IMG/VR virus record: IMGVR_UViG_3300043436_001717
Location: 1-26,902 of that record
DNA: 26,902 nt
Strand: one strand, 5' to 3'
Origin: a virus
Both the position numbers and the translations under genes were made by a program. Positions 17,090 through 25,697 of the stretch are shown piece by piece (position 1 is the first letter of the stretch; each line of letters opens with the position of its first letter). The notes below the pieces were generated by a model. The model was not told the origin of the DNA and made no database searches. It worked only from the letters and a program-made list of their open reading frames with translations.

Positions 17090-17380
17090 ATGTCTCAAGA
17101 ATTGAATACCACTATTGATGATGTTCTCAAAGTGTCTGGTTCCAGCAACCCTCAGTCTGTGGGTTCTATTATGGCTCGTGCCATCAATGCTGGACAGTTG
17201 CCTAAAATGCGTGCAATTGGGGCATCTGCTGTCAATCAAGCGGCTAAAGCAGCCGCTATTGCTCGTGGTTTTGTAGCCCCCCGTGGCACAGACCTTTCGT
17301 TCGTCATCGGATTTGATGACATCCTTGGAGAAAACGGGGAAACTATCTCCGCTATCTCTTTCAAACCCATTGTAAAGTAA
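17090..17380 (+). CDS. spoVS: SpoVS homologue (Alba-superfamily nucleic-acid-binding protein)
   Basis: This 96-residue protein matches SpoVS closely by eye: DVLKVSGSSNPQSVGSIMAR (11-30), MRAIGASAVNQAAKAAAIAR (40-59) and GFVAPRGTDLSFVIGF (60-75). The GA.A.NQA.KA.AIARGF core is characteristic. SpoVS proteins belong to the Alba-like fold and affect sporulation and septation in Bacillus and Streptomyces. In a phage it may bind nucleic acid or alter host development or division; the phage function is not established. It stands alone between the replication operon and the small-protein cluster, with its own short leader. Confidence 0.88.
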   Translation: MSQELNTTIDDVLKVSGSSNPQSVGSIMARAINAGQLPKMRAIGASAVNQAAKAAAIARGFVAPRGTDLSFVIGFDDILGENGETISAISFKPIVK

Positions 17381-17387
17381 GGTAGTT

Positions 17388-18080
17388 ATGGCAATTAAGT
17401 CAAACATGCGTGGTGGTTCAGGTGCAGGTCGTGGAGACAACGCACACTATGAAGGCACAGGACCTGTAAAGGGTACCGATGGTCAAGTAGCAGGCGGTAA
17501 CTGGGGAGACCCTGAGCGCCAAGCCGCAGCCCATTACGAAGCCACACGTCAGGGTTCTACTTCCCCCGGTGGTCGTACTCCTCAAGAAACTGCACAGCGT
17601 CAATATGACCAACACACAATTGCACATGCTGACGGTTTTATTGGTCCTCGTATTGGTGAAGCATACGGTGCCCGTGGGCAAGGAGTTGACCGAGCCACCA
17701 TGAAAGGTCTGGCTCCAACCTCTAAGGGTGGTATGCAACCTAGCCCATCTTTTGGTCGTGTTTATGGCGCAGGTTCGGCAGATACCGCAGGTCGTATGGG
17801 TCACTTAGACGACGTAGTTCCTGAAACAAAGCCTCGCATGATGCAACATAAAGAAACTGGCAACCTCATTGAAGTGCAAAAAATGCACGAAGGTGACCGA
17901 GTAAACGACTATGGCACTGATGCAAAAGGTCAATCCATGCAACCACGTGAGGATTACAACATGAACCCCGGTGGTCGTTATGGTAAGGGGATTGACCATA
18001 CTTCTGATGATTACACAGACGTTTCGGACGTTATTCGTAGTACCGAAACATACAAGACCCGTAAGCAACGTCCTTCTTAG
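17388..18080 (+). CDS. Disordered Gly-rich protein, first of the small-protein cluster
   Basis: This 230-residue protein starts at ATG 17388 with AAGGTAG upstream. The sequence is rich in Gly, Asp, Gln and Arg with few hydrophobic residues, so it is probably mostly unfolded. AHYEGTG and AHYEATR are a short internal repeat near residues 19 and 48. A slightly more ordered part includes MMQHKETGNLIEVQKMHEGD at about 150-175. No homology is recognised. A virion-internal or scaffold-like role is one possibility; there is no direct evidence. Confidence 0.6.
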   Translation: MAIKSNMRGGSGAGRGDNAHYEGTGPVKGTDGQVAGGNWGDPERQAAAHYEATRQGSTSPGGRTPQETAQRQYDQHTIAHADGFIGPRIGEAYGARGQGVDRATMKGLAPTSKGGMQPSPSFGRVYGAGSADTAGRMGHLDDVVPETKPRMMQHKETGNLIEVQKMHEGDRVNDYGTDAKGQSMQPREDYNMNPGGRYGKGIDHTSDDYTDVSDVIRSTETYKTRKQRPS

Positions 18081-18092
18081 TAAGTAAAGAAC

Positions 18093-18404
18093 ATGCCAAG
18101 ACCTAACGGACCTCAATTTACTGAGCACGCAGCAGGGATGCAAGTCGCCCCTGCTTCTGTTGAATACCTTGATGAACGTTTTACGACAGAACCTAAAGCC
18201 GCTCCTGCTGGTGGCGGTGGTGGTAAGGGACCTTCAGGACCTGACAATGGTAAGTACACCAACGTAGGTGACGAGCCAAACAACGACAAGTTTAAAAAGG
18301 GTCCTAAGAGTCCTGATTGGTCTTCCTATGGTGACAACCAAGGAAAGATGGGCAAAGGCACGGGAGATGACGAAAACCCAACATCTGAGGATTACTACAA
18401 ATGA
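18093..18404 (+). CDS. Disordered Gly/Lys/Asp-rich protein
   Basis: The 103 residues begin MPRPNGPQFTEHAAGMQVAP and then continue as low-complexity sequence (GGGGGKGPSGPDNGKY, DNQGKMGKGTGDDENP). Only the first 30 residues look able to fold. The ribosome site is weak. It overlaps the next gene by four bases (ATGA). Function unknown. Confidence 0.55.
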   Translation: MPRPNGPQFTEHAAGMQVAPASVEYLDERFTTEPKAAPAGGGGGKGPSGPDNGKYTNVGDEPNNDKFKKGPKSPDWSSYGDNQGKMGKGTGDDENPTSEDYYK

Positions 18405-18538
18405 GTAGTCGCAAGCCATCACGCCGTCCAACTGCTAGCAAGTACCGTAAGGCGCAGGAACGTCCACGTCCTGTTGGTCTTGTAGGTGGTGGACAAGGTG
18501 GCTTGCTTGGCGGTCCGTCTGCTGGAGGTTTGCGCTAA
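18401..18538 (+). CDS. 45-residue Arg-rich/Gly-rich peptide
   Basis: ATG 18401 overlaps the upstream TGA, and its TAA at 18536-18538 overlaps the next ATG. The product begins with SSRKPSRRPTASKYRKAQER and ends in a Gly-rich half (VGGGQGGLLGGPSAGG). The coupling on both sides supports translation. The basic half could bind nucleic acid or a capsid interior; this is inference from composition only. Confidence 0.6.
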   Translation: MSSRKPSRRPTASKYRKAQERPRPVGLVGGGQGGLLGGPSAGGLR

Positions 18539-18741
18539 TGTCTCGCAGAGGTTTTTTTGATGAAGGTCATGGAATGGACCATCACAAGGTTCGTAATGCC
18601 ATGTGGGTAGGAGCAGGCGCTCTTATTGGCGCACAAGTAATGGGTGGTCCAGTGGGTGCTCTTGCAGGTGCGGCGGCTTACCACGCTGTAAACAAGTTTA
18701 TGGACAGTAGACGTCCACAGGAAGATGAGGAAGATTACTGA
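18538..18741 (+). CDS. Small glycine-zipper membrane protein
   Basis: The 67 residues contain WVGAGALIGAQVMGGPVG and ALAGAAAYHAV at about 23-51, a run of small residues with a Gly-x3-Gly pattern typical of glycine-zipper membrane hairpins. The flanks are polar, with His-rich (DHHK) and acidic (PQEDEEDY) ends. It starts at a TAATG junction. It might be a membrane or virion-inserted peptide; function unknown. Confidence 0.6.
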   Translation: MSRRGFFDEGHGMDHHKVRNAMWVGAGALIGAQVMGGPVGALAGAAAYHAVNKFMDSRRPQEDEEDY

Positions 18742-19229
18742 TGGCTCAGCAATCAACGTTTACATCTTGGACTAACCCTTCAGATAATCCTAACTCTGAC
18801 CCTACTGGTGCGTATGGTCCAAGCCCTGTATGGCGTTCATCTAAAGATGAATTGCTTTCGGGCTACCGTTCTCAACCAGATACCGTCCACCCCGATGGTT
18901 ACCTAGGCACCATGTCGGCAAACCGCCGACAAGATAAGTTGCTTGGAACAATGAGCCGCATGAACGCTCGGCAGTACAGCCGTGGTGTTCACAAAGGAGA
19001 GCGCATCAATCCCGGAGATTACCTCTGGCCTGATGAGTTTAATATGTACACAGGTCTTGTCCTTGAGTCTCAAGGTAAGAAGTTTTCACCTCCGGGTGCT
19101 GAACCTGTGCGTTTAACAAATGATGGAAAGGTTGGACCACGGGGTATTCCAACCAACAAAGACACACCAGCAGAAATTAACCCTGTACGACGTTCTTATT
19201 TTAAGAGCCTAATGCCTGCTTGGAAGTAA
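18741..19229 (+). CDS. Unrecognised small-cluster protein
   Basis: This 162-residue protein starts at a TGATG junction. The first 40 residues are Ser/Pro/Asn-rich. The middle, RMNARQYSRGVHKGERINPG and DYLWPDEFNMYTG, looks structured and aromatic-rich. The tail reads NPVRRSYFKSLMPAWK. Its composition is more ordered than that of its neighbours, so it may be the best candidate in the cluster for a folded structural protein. I do not recognise it. Confidence 0.6.
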   Translation: MAQQSTFTSWTNPSDNPNSDPTGAYGPSPVWRSSKDELLSGYRSQPDTVHPDGYLGTMSANRRQDKLLGTMSRMNARQYSRGVHKGERINPGDYLWPDEFNMYTGLVLESQGKKFSPPGAEPVRLTNDGKVGPRGIPTNKDTPAEINPVRRSYFKSLMPAWK

Positions 19230-19232
19230 CCC

Positions 19233-19568
19233 ATGAAGAAACCAATTCCTTCAGTACATGGTAAGAGTCACGAAGACCGTGCGTACCACCCCGGACGCTC
19301 AGGTGGTCGTTCAGAACTCGCCCGTGCCCTAGACCCATTCTCTGGGTACTCAGAATCAGCCGCAGGTCGTGATGACGCATGGCAAGGTTACGAAGGTGCA
19401 ATCACCACAGAAGAAGACACCTATGACATGGGCGGTGGTCCACTGGACTTGACTCGTCGTAACCGTGGTGTTGAGTGGGAACCCACTGAGTACGAGCAAG
19501 AACAATCTCGTTTCAAGCGTGACACCGTGCTTGATGCAATTAAAGATGCTTTTGGTAAGGAACACTAG
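19233..19568 (+). CDS. Small-cluster protein with EDRAYHPGRSGGRS motif
   Basis: This 111-residue protein starts at ATG 19233 with GGAAG upstream. Residues 14-27 (EDRAYHPGRSGGRS) recur in altered form in the protein at 19843. The remainder is acidic and polar, ending in a short helix (DTVLDAIKDAFGKEH). It overlaps the next start by one base. Function unknown. Confidence 0.6.
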   Translation: MKKPIPSVHGKSHEDRAYHPGRSGGRSELARALDPFSGYSESAAGRDDAWQGYEGAITTEEDTYDMGGGPLDLTRRNRGVEWEPTEYEQEQSRFKRDTVLDAIKDAFGKEH

Positions 19569-19843
19569 TGCCAGATAATCACAGAGGTACGCCACTGAAT
19601 GGCAACCATACCCCAACACCTCGTAAGGGTAATCGTGTAACCCATAGTCAAGACACAGATGTGGCTCCTGCTAATGGTATCCCACGTCCATCTATTACAA
19701 ACATTGATACTGAAGGAGAACACTTATCTCCATCAGACCTTGCTGAAAGCAAATATTGGGAAGACCATTTTAAATACCACGGTATGGGTTACCCAAGAGA
19801 ACATTTTGAACAATATCCCGATTCATTTTTTGAGGAGAAATAA
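19568..19843 (+). CDS. Small-cluster protein with N-terminal HRG...NHxPTPR tag
   Basis: GTG 19568 overlaps the upstream TAG. The 91 residues begin MPDNHRGTPLNGNHTPTPR, nearly the same first 19 residues as two genes about 2.9 kb downstream, while the rest of the protein (SDLAESKYWEDHFKYHGMGY) is different. The body is acidic and aromatic. The shared N-terminus suggests a tag-like module. Function unknown. Confidence 0.62.
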   Translation: MPDNHRGTPLNGNHTPTPRKGNRVTHSQDTDVAPANGIPRPSITNIDTEGEHLSPSDLAESKYWEDHFKYHGMGYPREHFEQYPDSFFEEK

Positions 19844-20040
19844 TGTCAGGACATCGTGACGACGGCTCATACGCCGAAGACAGAGCACATCACCCTAATC
19901 GCAAGGTAGGTCGCAGTGATGTGTCCTACTCAGGTAGTTGTAGCCACTGTGATGAAAAAGGTCCAGTAACCCCAACAACTGCTTATGGTCGTGACGCAGA
20001 TTTGTGTTCAACTTGTACAAAATTGTATAACAACCGCTAA
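19843..20040 (+). CDS. Small zinc-binding-like protein with EDRAHHPNRKVGRS motif
   Basis: The 65 residues contain EDRAHHPNRKVGRS at 12-25, matching the protein two genes upstream. C33, C36, C55 and C58 (CSHC ... CSTC) follow, a probable treble-clef or zinc-ribbon site. It begins at a TAATG junction with GAGGAGAA before it. A short linear motif is thus joined to a zinc knuckle. Function unknown. Confidence 0.62.
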   Translation: MSGHRDDGSYAEDRAHHPNRKVGRSDVSYSGSCSHCDEKGPVTPTTAYGRDADLCSTCTKLYNNR

Positions 20041-20043
20041 ATA

Positions 20044-20352
20044 ATGCCTCAAGTTCCCTATAAGCCGTGGCAGTCCCGTCAGGAACAACTGACAGACCAA
20101 GCCTTGCAGAATGCAATTTCTGACCCTGATACCATCAGGCAGATTCGTCCTGTCGTACCTCAGGAATTGTTTCCTGAGTCACGAGGCTTTGCCAAGCAAG
20201 AGCAGGGAATTCGTGACATTCTTAATACGAGTAGGTATGCCCCAACCTACCGTTCTTGGATTTCTGGGGCGCCAGTCATGTTCCGTAATGGTTTCATGAA
20301 TGGAAACTTTGAAGGTTCTAGCCGATACTCAATGCAAGGATTGTGGTCATAA
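20044..20352 (+). CDS. Unrecognised small-cluster protein
   Basis: The 102 residues include SRQEQLTDQALQNAISDPDT, DTIRQIRPVVPQELFP and an aromatic C-terminal part (RYAPTYRSWISGAPVMF). Moderately ordered, with no membrane segment. It overlaps the next start by one base. No family is recognised. Confidence 0.55.
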   Translation: MPQVPYKPWQSRQEQLTDQALQNAISDPDTIRQIRPVVPQELFPESRGFAKQEQGIRDILNTSRYAPTYRSWISGAPVMFRNGFMNGNFEGSSRYSMQGLWS

Positions 20353-22247
20353 TGCCAACATGGGAAGAGGGGCAAGAAGAAGCCCAACGTAATAGTCGCA
20401 ACCGAGTATTCGGTGGCACTCGTAGTCTAGGTGGTGCCGTTGGTGGCACTCGTGACATGAGTGGTAACACTGGCGGTGAGCGCAACCCGTCCATCTTTGG
20501 AAACTTGCGTAACAATCGTGGTGGTAGTGTTAGCGGTGGAGTAACCCCTAACTATGGCATGGGTGGCTCTAGTCGTTATCCACAGAGTCAATTTGGTGGA
20601 GCCATTACTCAAAATGGTACTGGTGCTGTAACTAGTTCCGCAGGTAGCCGTGGTATGCGCCGTGGACGTGGTGGCGACGTAAGTGTTGATGACAGTTCAG
20701 GTTCGGGCAACGTTACTATTCAATTTGCCCCACAAGACAGCCGTTCAGGAAGCATTGGTGATGTTGCTGGAACAGGTGCCGTACAAGATAAGCGTCAAGA
20801 CAATAGTACTAACATTGATGCTTCAAGCCGTAACATTAATGGCAACGTAGGAAACTCACTACGGCAAGATGCTAGCGGTGGAGAAAGCCGTTCGGGAGAT
20901 GCCAGCAGCGAAAGCCGTGCCGGTGACTCTAGAGCAACTGCAACCGCAACTGCAACCGATGGTAGCGCCCCTGCTGAACCTGCAAAGAAGGCTCGCACTC
21001 GTCGTAATCCCGAAGATATTTCTCCTGACGAGCGAGCCAGAATGGACAAACGTAATGAAGGAGAGCGTAAGCGTCGTGCTGATAGAAAAGAAGCCGCTGC
21101 ACGTGAAACAACCGTTACGGCAGATGCAAAGGCTGCCAAGGGTGGTGACAGTGAATCCACTGCTACTACTGGTAATAGTGATGCCCGTGGCGGTAGGAAC
21201 GATGGCTCCGTTGGCGGTGACATTGACATGTCCAGTGGTCGCAGGGGTCCTTCAGTATTAGACGGTCCTCCTGCTGGCGGTGCTCAACCTAGCACACCTA
21301 GTGGCGACAACAACGACAACAGTACAAATGTTCGTACTGGTGATACTGGTGGTAACAACCAACAAGTTGGTGACAACCCAAGTACTAGCACTACTACAAC
21401 TACTAATACAACTACCCCTCCTCCAAGGGACCCTGATAGCCCCCCGTCACGAGGTGATTCCCCTCGTAGCACTGAGCGTCCAACGCCCAGTGGGGATTCA
21501 CCTGAGCGCCCAACCATCCCAATGACCGACCCCGGCACAGGAACAACTGGTACAACCCAGCCTCCTCGTAGCCGTGGTCGTAGGGGTTGGTTTGATGGTC
21601 GTGGGCCTGACCGAGCAACTCCAGCGGACGTTGAAGGTCTTGCAGAACGTATTGAACCAAGTCGTACTGGACGTCCAAGTATTCCTATGAATGATGTTGA
21701 ACCTACACAAGTAATGCCTACCACTCGTGGTGGTGCACCAACCCGTCGCACGGACCGTCCTAATGTTCCAATGGGTGATACATCAGATGATGGCGTCACT
21801 TCAGAAGATATTATGAACACTTTCTTTCCTCCGGGGACGTCAACTCCAAGTACGGAAACTCCTAAACCTGCTCCAGAACGCCCTGCTGGAACCCCTGAGG
21901 CAAGTGTCACACCTCCTGAGGGATTTCAAGGTCCTCGCAGTGTTCCTGAAGATAGGCAATTGCCAATGGGTGAGCCAAAGGTTGTTAACGACAACAAGCC
22001 AACCCCAGCCGCTGACCTTCCTCCAGCAGAGAAGCCTGCTAAAAAGGAGCGTGCTCCTCGGAAGTCTAAGGCTAAGGGTGAAAAGGTTGTCTTAGATGAC
22101 GTCAAGAAACCAAAGCCTGAGACAGTGACTTTGGATGATGTTAAAAAGCCTGAGACCAAGACCGAAACCAATGACAAGCCCAAGGAAAAGCCCAAGGGTA
22201 GCGTCAAAATCGTAGATGGTGTTCCCACCTTCGTCCCTGATAAATGA
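20352..22247 (+). CDS. 631-residue intrinsically disordered Gly/Arg/Ser/Pro-rich protein
   Basis: ATG 20352 (TAATG) is preferred over GTG 20343. Residues 1-210 are Gly/Ser/Asn/Arg-rich. A Lys/Arg-rich helical stretch follows (SPDERARMDKRNEGERKRRA), then Thr/Pro-rich linkers with a run of threonines. Imperfect repeats are RPTIPMTD, RPSIPMND, RPNVPMGD and RQLPMGE in the C-terminal half, and VVLDDVKKP/VTLDDVKKP near the end. Almost no hydrophobic core is visible. Length and composition suggest a multivalent scaffold, tether or condensate-forming protein rather than an enzyme. I recognise no homologue. Confidence 0.65.
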   Translation: MPTWEEGQEEAQRNSRNRVFGGTRSLGGAVGGTRDMSGNTGGERNPSIFGNLRNNRGGSVSGGVTPNYGMGGSSRYPQSQFGGAITQNGTGAVTSSAGSRGMRRGRGGDVSVDDSSGSGNVTIQFAPQDSRSGSIGDVAGTGAVQDKRQDNSTNIDASSRNINGNVGNSLRQDASGGESRSGDASSESRAGDSRATATATATDGSAPAEPAKKARTRRNPEDISPDERARMDKRNEGERKRRADRKEAAARETTVTADAKAAKGGDSESTATTGNSDARGGRNDGSVGGDIDMSSGRRGPSVLDGPPAGGAQPSTPSGDNNDNSTNVRTGDTGGNNQQVGDNPSTSTTTTTNTTTPPPRDPDSPPSRGDSPRSTERPTPSGDSPERPTIPMTDPGTGTTGTTQPPRSRGRRGWFDGRGPDRATPADVEGLAERIEPSRTGRPSIPMNDVEPTQVMPTTRGGAPTRRTDRPNVPMGDTSDDGVTSEDIMNTFFPPGTSTPSTETPKPAPERPAGTPEASVTPPEGFQGPRSVPEDRQLPMGEPKVVNDNKPTPAADLPPAEKPAKKERAPRKSKAKGEKVVLDDVKKPKPETVTLDDVKKPETKTETNDKPKEKPKGSVKIVDGVPTFVPDK

Positions 22248-22259
22248 TAGGATTATATT

Positions 22260-22454
22260 ATGGCTGTTAACGAATCTCGTTCATGTAACCAAGACTTGCG
22301 CCGAGGCGCTCGTGACGGTAAGTTCAAGTCTCTCACCCCAAGTCGTGGTGGTGAGGTTGACCCAACTGCTGCGACCATCCGCAAGGCTGAATTGAACATT
22401 CAATACAACGTGCAAGTTCCAAGCATGGACTTGCCAGAAGCCCACCTAGGTTAA
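22260..22454 (+). CDS. Small protein of unknown function
   Basis: The 64 residues start at ATG 22260 with AGGAT upstream. The sequence is basic at the start (CNQDLRRGARDGKFKSLTPS) and ends in a more ordered part (IRKAELNIQYNVQVPSMDLP). Not recognised. It sits between the long disordered protein and the tandem pair. Confidence 0.55.
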   Translation: MAVNESRSCNQDLRRGARDGKFKSLTPSRGGEVDPTAATIRKAELNIQYNVQVPSMDLPEAHLG

Positions 22455-22455
22455 G

Positions 22456-22746
22456 GATTAAATAATGCCAGATAACCACAGAGGAATGCCATTGAATGGC
22501 AACCACCGCCCAACCCCACGACTTGCACAACTGTTGGCTCGTCAGATGAGTACATCAGCATTTAAGAGTCCTTTCTCTTCTGAATATGCACAAAGTGAAC
22601 TTGACCATTACCGTTATGCACGAGACGAGCACGCTAAAGATGTGTCTACTGGGTACCTTTCGGAAGAAGAAGCAAATGAACGTACTGCTCCCGAACGAAA
22701 TGCCATCAACAAGGCTATTAGGAACCGTTAAGGATTAAATAATGGG
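22456..22746 (+). repeat. Duplicated gene leader TTAAGGATTAAATAATG
   Basis: The same 17-base stop-leader-start string lies before ATG 22465 and before ATG 22742. In each case it ends the preceding gene and supplies AAGGAT as the ribosome site. It supports tandem duplication of the gene between them. Confidence 0.7.
22465..22731 (+). CDS. Tandem paralogue A with HRG...NHxPTPR tag
   Basis: The 88 residues begin MPDNHRGMPLNGNHRPTPR, then LAQLLARQ and a helical body (SELDHYRYARDEHAKD) ending NKAIRNR. It is a clear paralogue of the next gene, and both have the same leader, AAGGATTAAATA before ATG. The N-terminal tag is also on the gene at 19568. The body looks like a small helical hairpin. Function unknown. 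Confidence 0.65.
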   Translation: MPDNHRGMPLNGNHRPTPRLAQLLARQMSTSAFKSPFSSEYAQSELDHYRYARDEHAKDVSTGYLSEEEANERTAPERNAINKAIRNR

Positions 22747-23011
22747 AACTACACACCGAGGAATGCCTACAGGCAGTAACCACCGCCCAACGCCACGTCT
22801 TTCTAGATTGATTGCGGAACAGTCCAACTCTCTGTATGGGGTAACACCTGAAAAAGCACAGGGTATGGTTGATAAGTATCGTTTAAATCGTGACTTTCTT
22901 AAAAAGATTGACGAGTCTCGTTATTCAAGCGATAATATTGCTCTTAAAACGCTAAAAAGTGGAATTACCGCAGACGAATCTGCGCTCAATAATTTTATTA
23001 AGAACCGTTAA
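22742..23011 (+). CDS. Tandem paralogue B with HRG...NHxPTPR tag
   Basis: The 89 residues begin MGTTHRGMPTGSNHRPTPR, then LSRLIAEQ, and end NNFIKNR, aligning along its whole length with the previous gene (YRLNRDF against YRYARDE). Spacing and leader are identical, indicating tandem gene duplication followed by divergence. It closes the small-protein cluster. Function unknown. Confidence 0.65.
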   Translation: MGTTHRGMPTGSNHRPTPRLSRLIAEQSNSLYGVTPEKAQGMVDKYRLNRDFLKKIDESRYSSDNIALKTLKSGITADESALNNFIKNR

Positions 23012-23040
23012 GGCTACTAGACAAACCCTGTAGTTATCAT

Positions 23041-23057
23041 GTAGGCTGTGTGCCTAC
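23041..23057 (+). promoter_or_regulatory. Short perfect hairpin in the leader of the gene at 23077
   Basis: GTAGGC (23041-23046) pairs with GCCTAC (23052-23057) around TGTGT. It has no T-run. A TAGACA (23018) and TAGGCT (23042) pair 18 bases apart might be a weak promoter, in which case the hairpin would lie at the start of the transcript; it could also be an operator. Confidence 0.35.
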
Positions 23058-23076
23058 GAACTATTAGGAGTATAAA

Positions 23077-23544
23077 ATGGCTGAGACCGGCTTTGACCGT
23101 ATCCTTGTTTGCAAAACTCATGGAATCATGTACAAGATGCGTCCCTACGATGGACCACCTGAGTATGACATGGAACTTCGTGAACTTTGTGACCGTCACA
23201 ACGCACAGGTGCAAGACCCTGACAACTGTCGTGCTCTCATCTTCCGTGTAGACCCAGATACTGCGTCCAACTTGGACATGGAAACTGCTTTGAAGAATGA
23301 ACTCAAAGAACAGGACGTCTATATCCGTGACTTCCGTGACGAGTTGAAGGTTGATGCTCTTCGTTGCTTTAACAAGCACAACCGACCCACCAATGGTTGT
23401 CCCGACTGGTGTGATGAGTCTAAGACAATTGGTCGCAAGACTGGTGTACCACCAGACAAGCGCCAATTCCTGTGCATGTATTGCCCAGCCGCTGCCCATG
23501 TTGCTCACGTTGAGCGCAAGGCTATGGGTATGTACGACGGATGA
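23077..23544 (+). CDS. Cys/His-rich conserved phage protein
   Basis: ATG 23077 follows TAGGAG; 155 residues. The C-terminal part has CFNKHNRPTNGCPDWCDE and then CMYCPAAAHVAHVE, giving five Cys and several His in an arrangement fit for one or two zinc sites. The N-terminal half (KTHGIMYKMRPYD) is mixed. RCFNKHNRP and CPDWCDESK resemble conserved actinophage proteins of unknown function. It starts a new transcription-like unit after a 65-base gap and overlaps the next gene (ATGA). Confidence 0.65.
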   Translation: MAETGFDRILVCKTHGIMYKMRPYDGPPEYDMELRELCDRHNAQVQDPDNCRALIFRVDPDTASNLDMETALKNELKEQDVYIRDFRDELKVDALRCFNKHNRPTNGCPDWCDESKTIGRKTGVPPDKRQFLCMYCPAAAHVAHVERKAMGMYDG

Positions 23545-24033: not shown

Positions 24034-24264
24034 ATGACGTTTGAAGAGTGGTTTAAGTACGGATTGGAAAAGTCCTTTTGTGGACCACCTGTATGTATAG
24101 ACCACGATGGTGTACCAAGCACTGAAGAAGAAGACCAGTGGACAGAAGAGCACGGAGAGATGCCATGCTTCTCTATGGTTCGCCTGTACGCAGATGACCT
24201 TGAACGTATGTTGGTTGAACAGAACCACTCCCCATCCATGTGGCGCAGGTCTGGCTGGGAATGA
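24034..24264 (+). CDS. Small acidic protein of unknown function
   Basis: ATG 24034 gives 76 residues; a TTG at 24025 is possible but weaker. The sequence is acidic (PSTEEEDQWTEEHGEMP) with a helical end (YADDLERMLVEQNH). No motif is recognised. It overlaps the next start by four bases. Confidence 0.55.
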   Translation: MTFEEWFKYGLEKSFCGPPVCIDHDGVPSTEEEDQWTEEHGEMPCFSMVRLYADDLERMLVEQNHSPSMWRRSGWE

Positions 24265-25697
24265 AGATTTACTTTGGTGGTGCCGAGAAAGGTTCCTATC
24301 GCAATCTACTACTGACAAATAATGTCACTAGATTTGGTATTAACCTTACACACTTCCCCATCCCTAAAAAGAAGGAACTGAATCTTTCAGAGGTGTTTGG
24401 TGGCGGTGAGGTTCTCCTATACTTGTCAGAGAATGACGAGGACGTGGCTCGCTACGATACTTTTATCCGTGAGCACGCTGACAGTCTGAGTGTCATCATT
24501 GGTCGCCCAGACTATGACGGCGCATGGCTTGGGGATAAGTATGTCCCCATTTGGAATGACGAGCAGGACATTGAGCGCCTTGCTTGGCTATGTCAAAAGT
24601 ATGGTCGTGTGGCTGTCAGTGACAAGGCTGTAAATGGTCGTAACGTCAGCCGTATTAAGCAGTTGTCAGAGCGTTGGGGAGCCAAGTTAATTGGCATCAC
24701 ATCTAAGCCTGACCTTATTGAAGCCATCAACTGGGAATCCGTTGTAGTGGTCTCGTGGACGTCTGTAATGCGCTATGGAGAGACACAGGTGTGGGATGGT
24801 CATGGTCTACGCCGATACCCCGCCCAACAAAAGGACAGTGCCCGTAAAAAGCATCGCAGTGACATCATCCGACTTGGTATTGATATAGATGACGTAATGG
24901 AAGACTCTGTGTCTGCTGTTGGTGCTCTTGCTATTGAGTCATGGAAGCAGTGGGAGAGTCGCACTTTTGGGGGCTATGACCCCTCAAATGTGGATGATGA
25001 AGCAGAGTTCAACCCCCCTGAAAACGATGAGATAATTGCTATTGCCCCTTCTACCCCTAGTGTGGGTACTCCGGATTTTAAGGGTACAGGTATTGCTATC
25101 AACGTGCCTGAGAAGCGTCACGAGGGTGAACGTGTATTACTACCAGTAATGGGTGTAGAGATGGTGACCTCTATGGGGTCGCAAACCCTTGATGAGCATG
25201 GGGAATCTATTGAAATCAACCCTACAACTACCCCTGTTTTAAAGTATAACGCCAACCCTTTACGGCAGTGCAATAATTGCTATCTGTCCTCTCGTTGTCC
25301 TAGTTTTAAGGAAAATGCGGAATGTGCATTTTCTCTCCCAATTGAGATTCGCACAAAGGACCAATTGAACGCAGCAATGCGTGCTCTTATTGAGATGCAA
25401 ATGGGTCGTGTGATGTTCGCTCGCTTTGCCGAAGAGATGGAAGGTCAAGGTATTGACCCTGCTTTATCGTCAGAGATGGACAGATTGTTTAACCTTGTAG
25501 ACAAGATGAAAAACATCTCTGATAACCGAGAGATGGTTAGCCTCAAGGTAGAAGCCAGTGGTTCTAGCGGAGTACTGTCCCGATTGTTTGGGCAAAAGGC
25601 TGGAGAGATGAACCGTATGCTTCCAAATGGTGGTATGGATTCAGGCGCTACAGATGCTATGTACGCCGACATCATAGATTTATCTCAAGAGGGTTGA
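24261..25697 (+). CDS. Conserved phage protein with C-x2-C-x5-C-x8-C cluster
   Basis: ATG 24261 (ATGA overlap) gives 478 residues. Residues 1-200 begin MKIYFGGAEKGSYRNLLLTN and look like an alternating alpha/beta domain (VLLYLSEN, AWLCQKYGRVAVSD). A long low-complexity linker follows. The C-terminal third carries CNNCYLSSRCPSFKENAEC (a zinc- or Fe-S-type cluster) followed by a helical region (QLNAAMRALIEMQMGRVMFA, then SSEMDRLFNLVDKMKNI). The pattern matches my memory of a conserved actinophage protein without firm function; a packaging- or DNA-related role is possible because of the metal site. Confidence 0.6.
   Translation: MKIYFGGAEKGSYRNLLLTNNVTRFGINLTHFPIPKKKELNLSEVFGGGEVLLYLSENDEDVARYDTFIREHADSLSVIIGRPDYDGAWLGDKYVPIWNDEQDIERLAWLCQKYGRVAVSDKAVNGRNVSRIKQLSERWGAKLIGITSKPDLIEAINWESVVVVSWTSVMRYGETQVWDGHGLRRYPAQQKDSARKKHRSDIIRLGIDIDDVMEDSVSAVGALAIESWKQWESRTFGGYDPSNVDDEAEFNPPENDEIIAIAPSTPSVGTPDFKGTGIAINVPEKRHEGERVLLPVMGVEMVTSMGSQTLDEHGESIEINPTTTPVLKYNANPLRQCNNCYLSSRCPSFKENAECAFSLPIEIRTKDQLNAAMRALIEMQMGRVMFARFAEEMEGQGIDPALSSEMDRLFNLVDKMKNISDNREMVSLKVEASGSSGVLSRLFGQKAGEMNRMLPNGGMDSGATDAMYADIIDLSQEG

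Follow-up and report, generated by a model that had tools for sequence, protein, structure and literature searches.

The stretch of DNA analysed here (the window) is a 26.9-kb fragment, 26,902 nucleotides long, of the IMG/VR virus record IMGVR_UViG_3300043436_001717. It contains a block of small genes with a modular architecture, of which we are confident: core genes keep a fixed order, cassettes are exchanged around them, and short N-terminal tags are swapped between proteins and confined to this locus. These tags are probably address labels. The best explanation that we can offer for the whole, and one we hold tentatively, is a tag-and-cargo locus, with delivery in the virion as the best single mechanism.

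Core and variable genes of the block

Thirteen + strand genes run from 17388 to 23011. That they are co-directional and tightly packed, as the sequence-only reading had claimed, was borne out by a separate gene caller, whose result agrees with the list of ORFs. Between neighbours there are at most 12 nt or an overlap of 1-4 nt; the last gene is followed by a gap of 65 nt. Counting the block from 17388 on overlooked the SpoVS gene, which lies 7 nt upstream in the same syntenic unit. Genes without a name are referred to below by their start positions.

17090..17380, + strand: SpoVS-family protein of 96 aa that opens the syntenic unit (PF04232, E=1.8e-19)
17388..18080, + strand: cassette, 230 aa, GGxGAGRGD-type N-terminus (dN/dS 0.3-0.5)
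18093..18404, + strand: cassette, 103 aa, N-terminus MPRPNGPQF, body nearly unique
18401..18538, + strand: core protein a45, 45 aa, pI 12, fixed order in most loci
18538..18741, + strand: cassette, 67 aa, Gly-rich hydrophobic segment, single-gene exchange between lineages
18741..19229, + strand: core protein a162, 162 aa, conserved, with IMG/VR relatives and BRock-group homology
19233..19568, + strand: cassette, 111 aa, HP-type tag HEDRAYHPGRSGGRS in a looser form
19568..19843, + strand: cassette, 91 aa, tag A DNHRGTPLNGNHTPTPR and an IPRP linear motif
19843..20040, + strand: cassette, 65 aa, tag B (AHHPNRKVGR) and a putative zinc body (CxxC/CxxC)
20044..20352, + strand: core protein a102, 102 aa, 30 invariant columns (19 homologues)
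20352..22247, + strand: large disordered protein, 631 aa, conserved in position, diverged in sequence
22260..22454, + strand: core protein a64, 64 aa, matched by profile to BRock gp45
22465..22731, + strand: cassette, 88 aa, tag A, 41% identity with 22742
22742..23011, + strand: cassette, 89 aa, tag A
23040..23058, + strand: stem-loop TGTAGGC-TGTGT-GCCTACG in the gap closing the block
23077..23544, + strand: Cys-rich protein of 155 aa at the downstream boundary, fixed order, homologous to BRock gp42 (E=2e-8)

A scan with a102 found 34 viral loci, and a scan with an a162 alignment found 205 IMG/VR relatives, 80 of which were kept. Because some contigs are represented among the 113 loci by more than one cut, counts were made on a non-redundant set of proteins. 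The order of the anchors is invariant in the 113 loci and the window: SpoVS, a45, a162, a102, the large disordered protein and a64, followed by the Cys-rich 155-aa gene. The block is no isolated case. Complete blocks (n = 77) hold 9-21 genes (median 13), with 5-17 variable genes (median 9), and the notion of a homogeneous set of 13 had to be given up in favour of a conserved core with exchangeable cassettes. A compact version is present in the distant locus L167 (SpoVS, a small gene, a162, one tagged gene, a small gene, a102, a disordered protein and a64), indicating that the core is old. Eight long genomes, of 70-94 kb, have the block after the replication genes, which in turn follow genes of head, tail sheath and baseplate type; the placement of the block between replication and later genes was correct for this clade. 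Four of the eight carry WhiB-family genes, which serve as an actinophage marker (PMC6802176). The clade is a large one of contractile-tailed phages, whose hosts are probably Actinobacteria.

For 11 of the 13 genes, dN/dS was below 1 against homologues from other loci, indicating that they are real genes under selection. Values were mostly 0.01-0.2 in the core (SpoVS 0.01-0.04, a45 0.1-0.17, a162 0.08-0.12, a102 0.03-0.17, a64 0.15-0.2) and 0.15-0.6 in variable genes. The large disordered protein has same-slot homologues of at most 39% identity and a dN/dS of 0.26-0.46. For 18093, a single weak homologue was found, with dS saturated.

Several properties ascribed to the proteins were also confirmed. 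By a charge/hydropathy test, 11 of the 13 are disordered; 19568, 22465 and 22742 have their first ~20 residues in common; 19843 has two CxxC pairs and 18538 a Gly-rich hydrophobic core. The tested members are indeed unrecognised, as none has a Pfam or PHROG match strong enough to name, and sequence searches of the block proteins against PDB, Pfam and PHROGs gave almost no matches. For representative members, PADLOC reported no noteworthy defence proteins, and Pfam, PHROGs and PADLOC gave no informative family match. Among the few recognisable block members in other loci is a cassette with a ParB-like domain (L155:7546-7989, PHROG 8071, 3e-8). In some lineages the block also includes basic small proteins of the WQRKEGKNPEGGLNAKGR and KxVWDKxNPKKKS families (L111:10965-11396, L121:12902-13347 and L157:7080-7340); in other lineages, VWDK-type genes sit between tail and replication genes.

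The first gene of the unit is a clear member of the DNA-binding-type SpoVS family, both by profile (69.7 bits against a curated PF04232 cut-off of 24; PHROG 'sporulation protein', 3.8e-16) and by its relatives of solved structure (PDB 2eh1/2ek0, E=1.2e-10). It differs from the family in being phage-encoded and linked to small phage proteins, and a role in sporulation is unlikely. In the literature searched, phage and virome SpoVS appears solely as a presumed auxiliary gene for sporulation (PMC8940887, PMC6172770). In a162, about 79 columns are invariant or near-invariant among 19 homologues. The AlphaFold models of a162 and a102 reached a pLDDT of 48 and 51, respectively, and for this reason no fold search was made with them. 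That neither is predicted to have a confident fold alone is as expected for parts that fold on assembly and suggests such a role; the alignments are also shallow.

The variable genes turn over quickly and move as single-gene cassettes. Cassette 18538 shares 99.5% DNA identity with locus L001 over exactly that gene, while the flanks are about 80-88% identical, which indicates that it was exchanged as a single gene. Its closest match has a dS of 0, which we read as recent exchange, and more distant matches give a dN/dS of 0.4-0.6. Two further exchanges of single-gene cassettes were found. Cassettes form 64 similarity clusters, 30 of which are singletons.

In front of the Cys-rich gene, 63% of loci have stems of at least 7 bp, versus 14% of shuffles. 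The stem-loop varies in sequence by locus; in most loci it precedes the ribosome-binding site of the Cys-rich gene, and it marks the end of the block. At the other end, a hairpin (AGGGTAC...GTACCCT, window:17056-17092) encloses the SpoVS Shine-Dalgarno sequence, as in some relatives, and is possibly a translational operator; in other loci a hairpin lies upstream of this sequence instead of around it. A common hairpin before SpoVS was rejected, as several different architectures occur and stems are hardly above shuffles. No late-promoter motif common to SpoVS and head genes was seen by eye. Downstream of the block, the window encodes a queuine tRNA-ribosyltransferase or DpdA-like protein (24261-25697, PHROG 887, 1e-37), homologous to BRock gp36, which possibly serves 7-deazaguanine modification of DNA or tRNA.

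Tags at the N-termini

Many cassettes, and not others, begin with a tag of 10-22 residues rich in H, R, G, N and P. The types include A (DHRGxPxGxNHRPTPR), B (GxDTxxHPNRKVxR) and C (FNGxPVFR), among others. In the window, tag A is found on 19568, 22465 and 22742, tag B on 19843, and a looser HP form on 19233. The same body can carry different tags: a body of ~125 aa occurs with five N-terminal types (L002_7234, L020_7705, L021_8936, L134_7446, L104_386), and further bodies are joined to tag A or to tag B depending on the phage. The body of 17388 is shared with a tag-A protein, L160_7060 (37%).

Tag types A-C occurred within the block only (8 genomes); matches marked as outside in G003 and G013 adjoin SpoVS and in fact belong to the block. 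Apart from one locus-edge artefact, none of 1050 outside proteins carried a tag. Among 2.9 million viral contigs, exact HPNRKVGR was found in this kind of locus, with the exception of one unrelated internal match; a second tag pattern scanned over viral contigs found nothing. The N-terminus of 18093 recurs elsewhere in related genomes, on proteins encoded by another cluster of small genes, host-directed in appearance, beside the tail-fibre end (L046:16654-20000 and L047:1-1943; 76.6-82 kb of genome G007). This cluster encodes a rifampin ADP-ribosyltransferase-like protein (Arr-ms, 1.5e-5), an ART-like protein and GNAT-like proteins; three members of the cluster have xGPQF/xGAQF-type N-termini that resemble that of 18093. 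As a usable tag, this type (tag D, MPxPxGPQF) was dropped because it is too rare.

The three tags have a core motif in common, [HFYL]x[GN][KRNQ]x[VI]x[RKGN], which was defined after inspection of the same data. Within their first 30 residues, 73 of 489 block proteins contain it, compared with 5 of 1013 outside proteins; the mean expected from shuffles was 1.4. When only dissimilar N-termini were considered, it was present in 26 of 236 block versus 2 of 479 outside proteins. The effect was real but smaller for held-out dissimilar N-termini (5 of 116 versus 1 of 235, p=0.016). Under the motif, fourfold sites of genes with unrelated bodies differed by 0.569, compared to 0.563 expected at random. 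Synonymous sites under the tag core are thus saturated, and the tags are not recent DNA copies. Selection at the protein level is the simplest explanation of why they persist.

Relationship to known phages

The nearest cultured relatives are the Streptomyces myovirus BRock and its group (GiJojo, Alone3, LuckySocke, pSt2308). The block gp51-gp45 of BRock contains homologous and syntenic SpoVS, a162 (gp48) and a64 (gp45) genes in identical order, and the three downstream genes gp42, gp38 and gp36 are likewise homologous and syntenic with the clade. Window SpoVS is 43% identical to gp51 and a162 39-43% identical to gp48 of the group, whereas a64 was matched to gp45 by profile (97.4% probability, E=1.1e-11). 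A tblastn search with SpoVS gave no match in cultured phages at 1e-3, although the pairwise similarity to gp51 is clear. Homology of a45 to gp46, with no match, is unsupported, and that of a102 to gp47 (10.5% probability) is not established. The blocks of BRock and GiJojo have 6-7 small genes conserved between them, not all of which are common to the clade. Both blocks lack tagged cassettes, with a single LRGRLVAK match, in gp49 at residue 29, and, unlike that of the clade, are followed by endolysin/cell-wall hydrolase genes.

A second comparison is offered by the T-even internal proteins Ip1, Ip2 and Ip3. These are small, highly diverse and variable among close relatives, have only an N-terminal packaging leader in common, and are injected with the DNA to inhibit different type IV restriction enzymes (PMC3012670, PMC12373910). 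Likewise, the diverse small proteins of the clade are related by a short N-terminal leader alone, as seen in tag swapping and locus confinement. T4 has three internal proteins, two loci and a capsid-targeting leader, whereas the clade has several tag types, 5-17 variable genes and a fixed core with SpoVS. Membership of the T4 type is not established: the 10 head-region proteins of G007 that were examined included no recognisable prohead protease, apart from an HslV/proteasome-like peptidase. The gene of this peptidase (L045:12525-13139, G007 52525-53139; PHROG 1040, 4e-26) lies between terminase and portal genes, and similar ones are present in some relatives, not all.

Possible function of the locus

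The most plausible reading of a short N-terminal segment that can be interchanged, is specific to one locus and sits on unrelated bodies is that of an address label recognised by a single reader. In the tag-and-cargo explanation, the core (SpoVS, a45, a162, a102, the large disordered protein and a64) would form or bind a phage structure; single-gene cassettes are inserted and exchanged in the gaps between core genes. Many of the cassettes consist of an N-terminal tag and an unrelated small body, mostly disordered and Cys-poor. One common partner, which might be the head scaffold, a162/a102 or SpoVS-coated DNA, would read the tags; the cargo would be loaded into the virion, enter the next cell with the DNA and act on host defences, the bodies being evolving host-directed proteins. 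The Cys content of the cassettes is 0.17%, compared to 0.4-0.7% in virion modules, 0.7-0.9% in replication and 1.6-1.9% in the early region; this is compatible with residence in the virion but also with disorder. Two of the three roles suggested by the sequence-only reading, a virion-internal set and an anti-host bank, would combine here, while the third, a replication compartment, found no direct support.

It is less likely that the block is a cytoplasmic host-takeover or anti-defence bank that is not packaged, in which tags dock the proteins on a phage-made hub (SpoVS, a162, the large disordered protein) or, alternatively, serve mainly as shared 5' ends for cassette recombination. The high turnover of variable genes, single-gene exchange and the ParB-like domain protein in L155 agree with such a bank, as does the neighbourhood, since the block adjoins replication and recombination genes, not head genes. 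However, fourfold sites under the tags are saturated, so recombination through shared DNA is not enough to account for the tags. The presence of two near-invariant core proteins, neither predicted with confidence to fold by itself, suggests an assembly more than free effectors, and the PADLOC result also argues against a bank.

Improbable as well is a DNA-organising or replication compartment, in which SpoVS, basic a45 and the disordered proteins condense around phage DNA and the tags recruit. SpoVS leads the syntenic unit, a45 has a pI of 12, some homologues of the large disordered protein end in lysine/alanine-rich tails, and the block is located after the RecA and nuclease genes; this makes a compartment possible, but the window's large disordered protein has almost no net charge and most cassettes are not strongly basic. 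Similarly improbable is an ordinary hypervariable accessory ('moron') region without common function, whose N-terminal likeness stems from old duplications: most cassettes have no recognisable domains, singleton clusters are many and the pair 22465/22742 is an obvious duplication, but the tags are swapped onto unrelated bodies, strictly locus-confined, N-terminal and saturated at synonymous sites, and the core has a fixed order partly common to BRock.

In its most specific form, which we consider rather doubtful, the tag-and-cargo explanation would amount to an actinophage address code unlike that of T4, with several interchangeable N-terminal short linear motifs loading disordered, fast-evolving cargo into a SpoVS-based virion or DNA-bound assembly with two near-invariant small proteins. 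The literature searched held no description of the locus or of a SpoVS-linked tagged bank. Leader-tagged diverse phage proteins as such are already known. The core is directly testable in Streptomyces by means of the BRock-group phages. If the explanation is true, the T-even principle of a common leader with diverse anti-host cargo would extend to an abundant group of uncultured phages, hundreds of small proteins would become candidate injected effectors, and short tags would be usable for sorting other 'hypothetical' proteins of phages.
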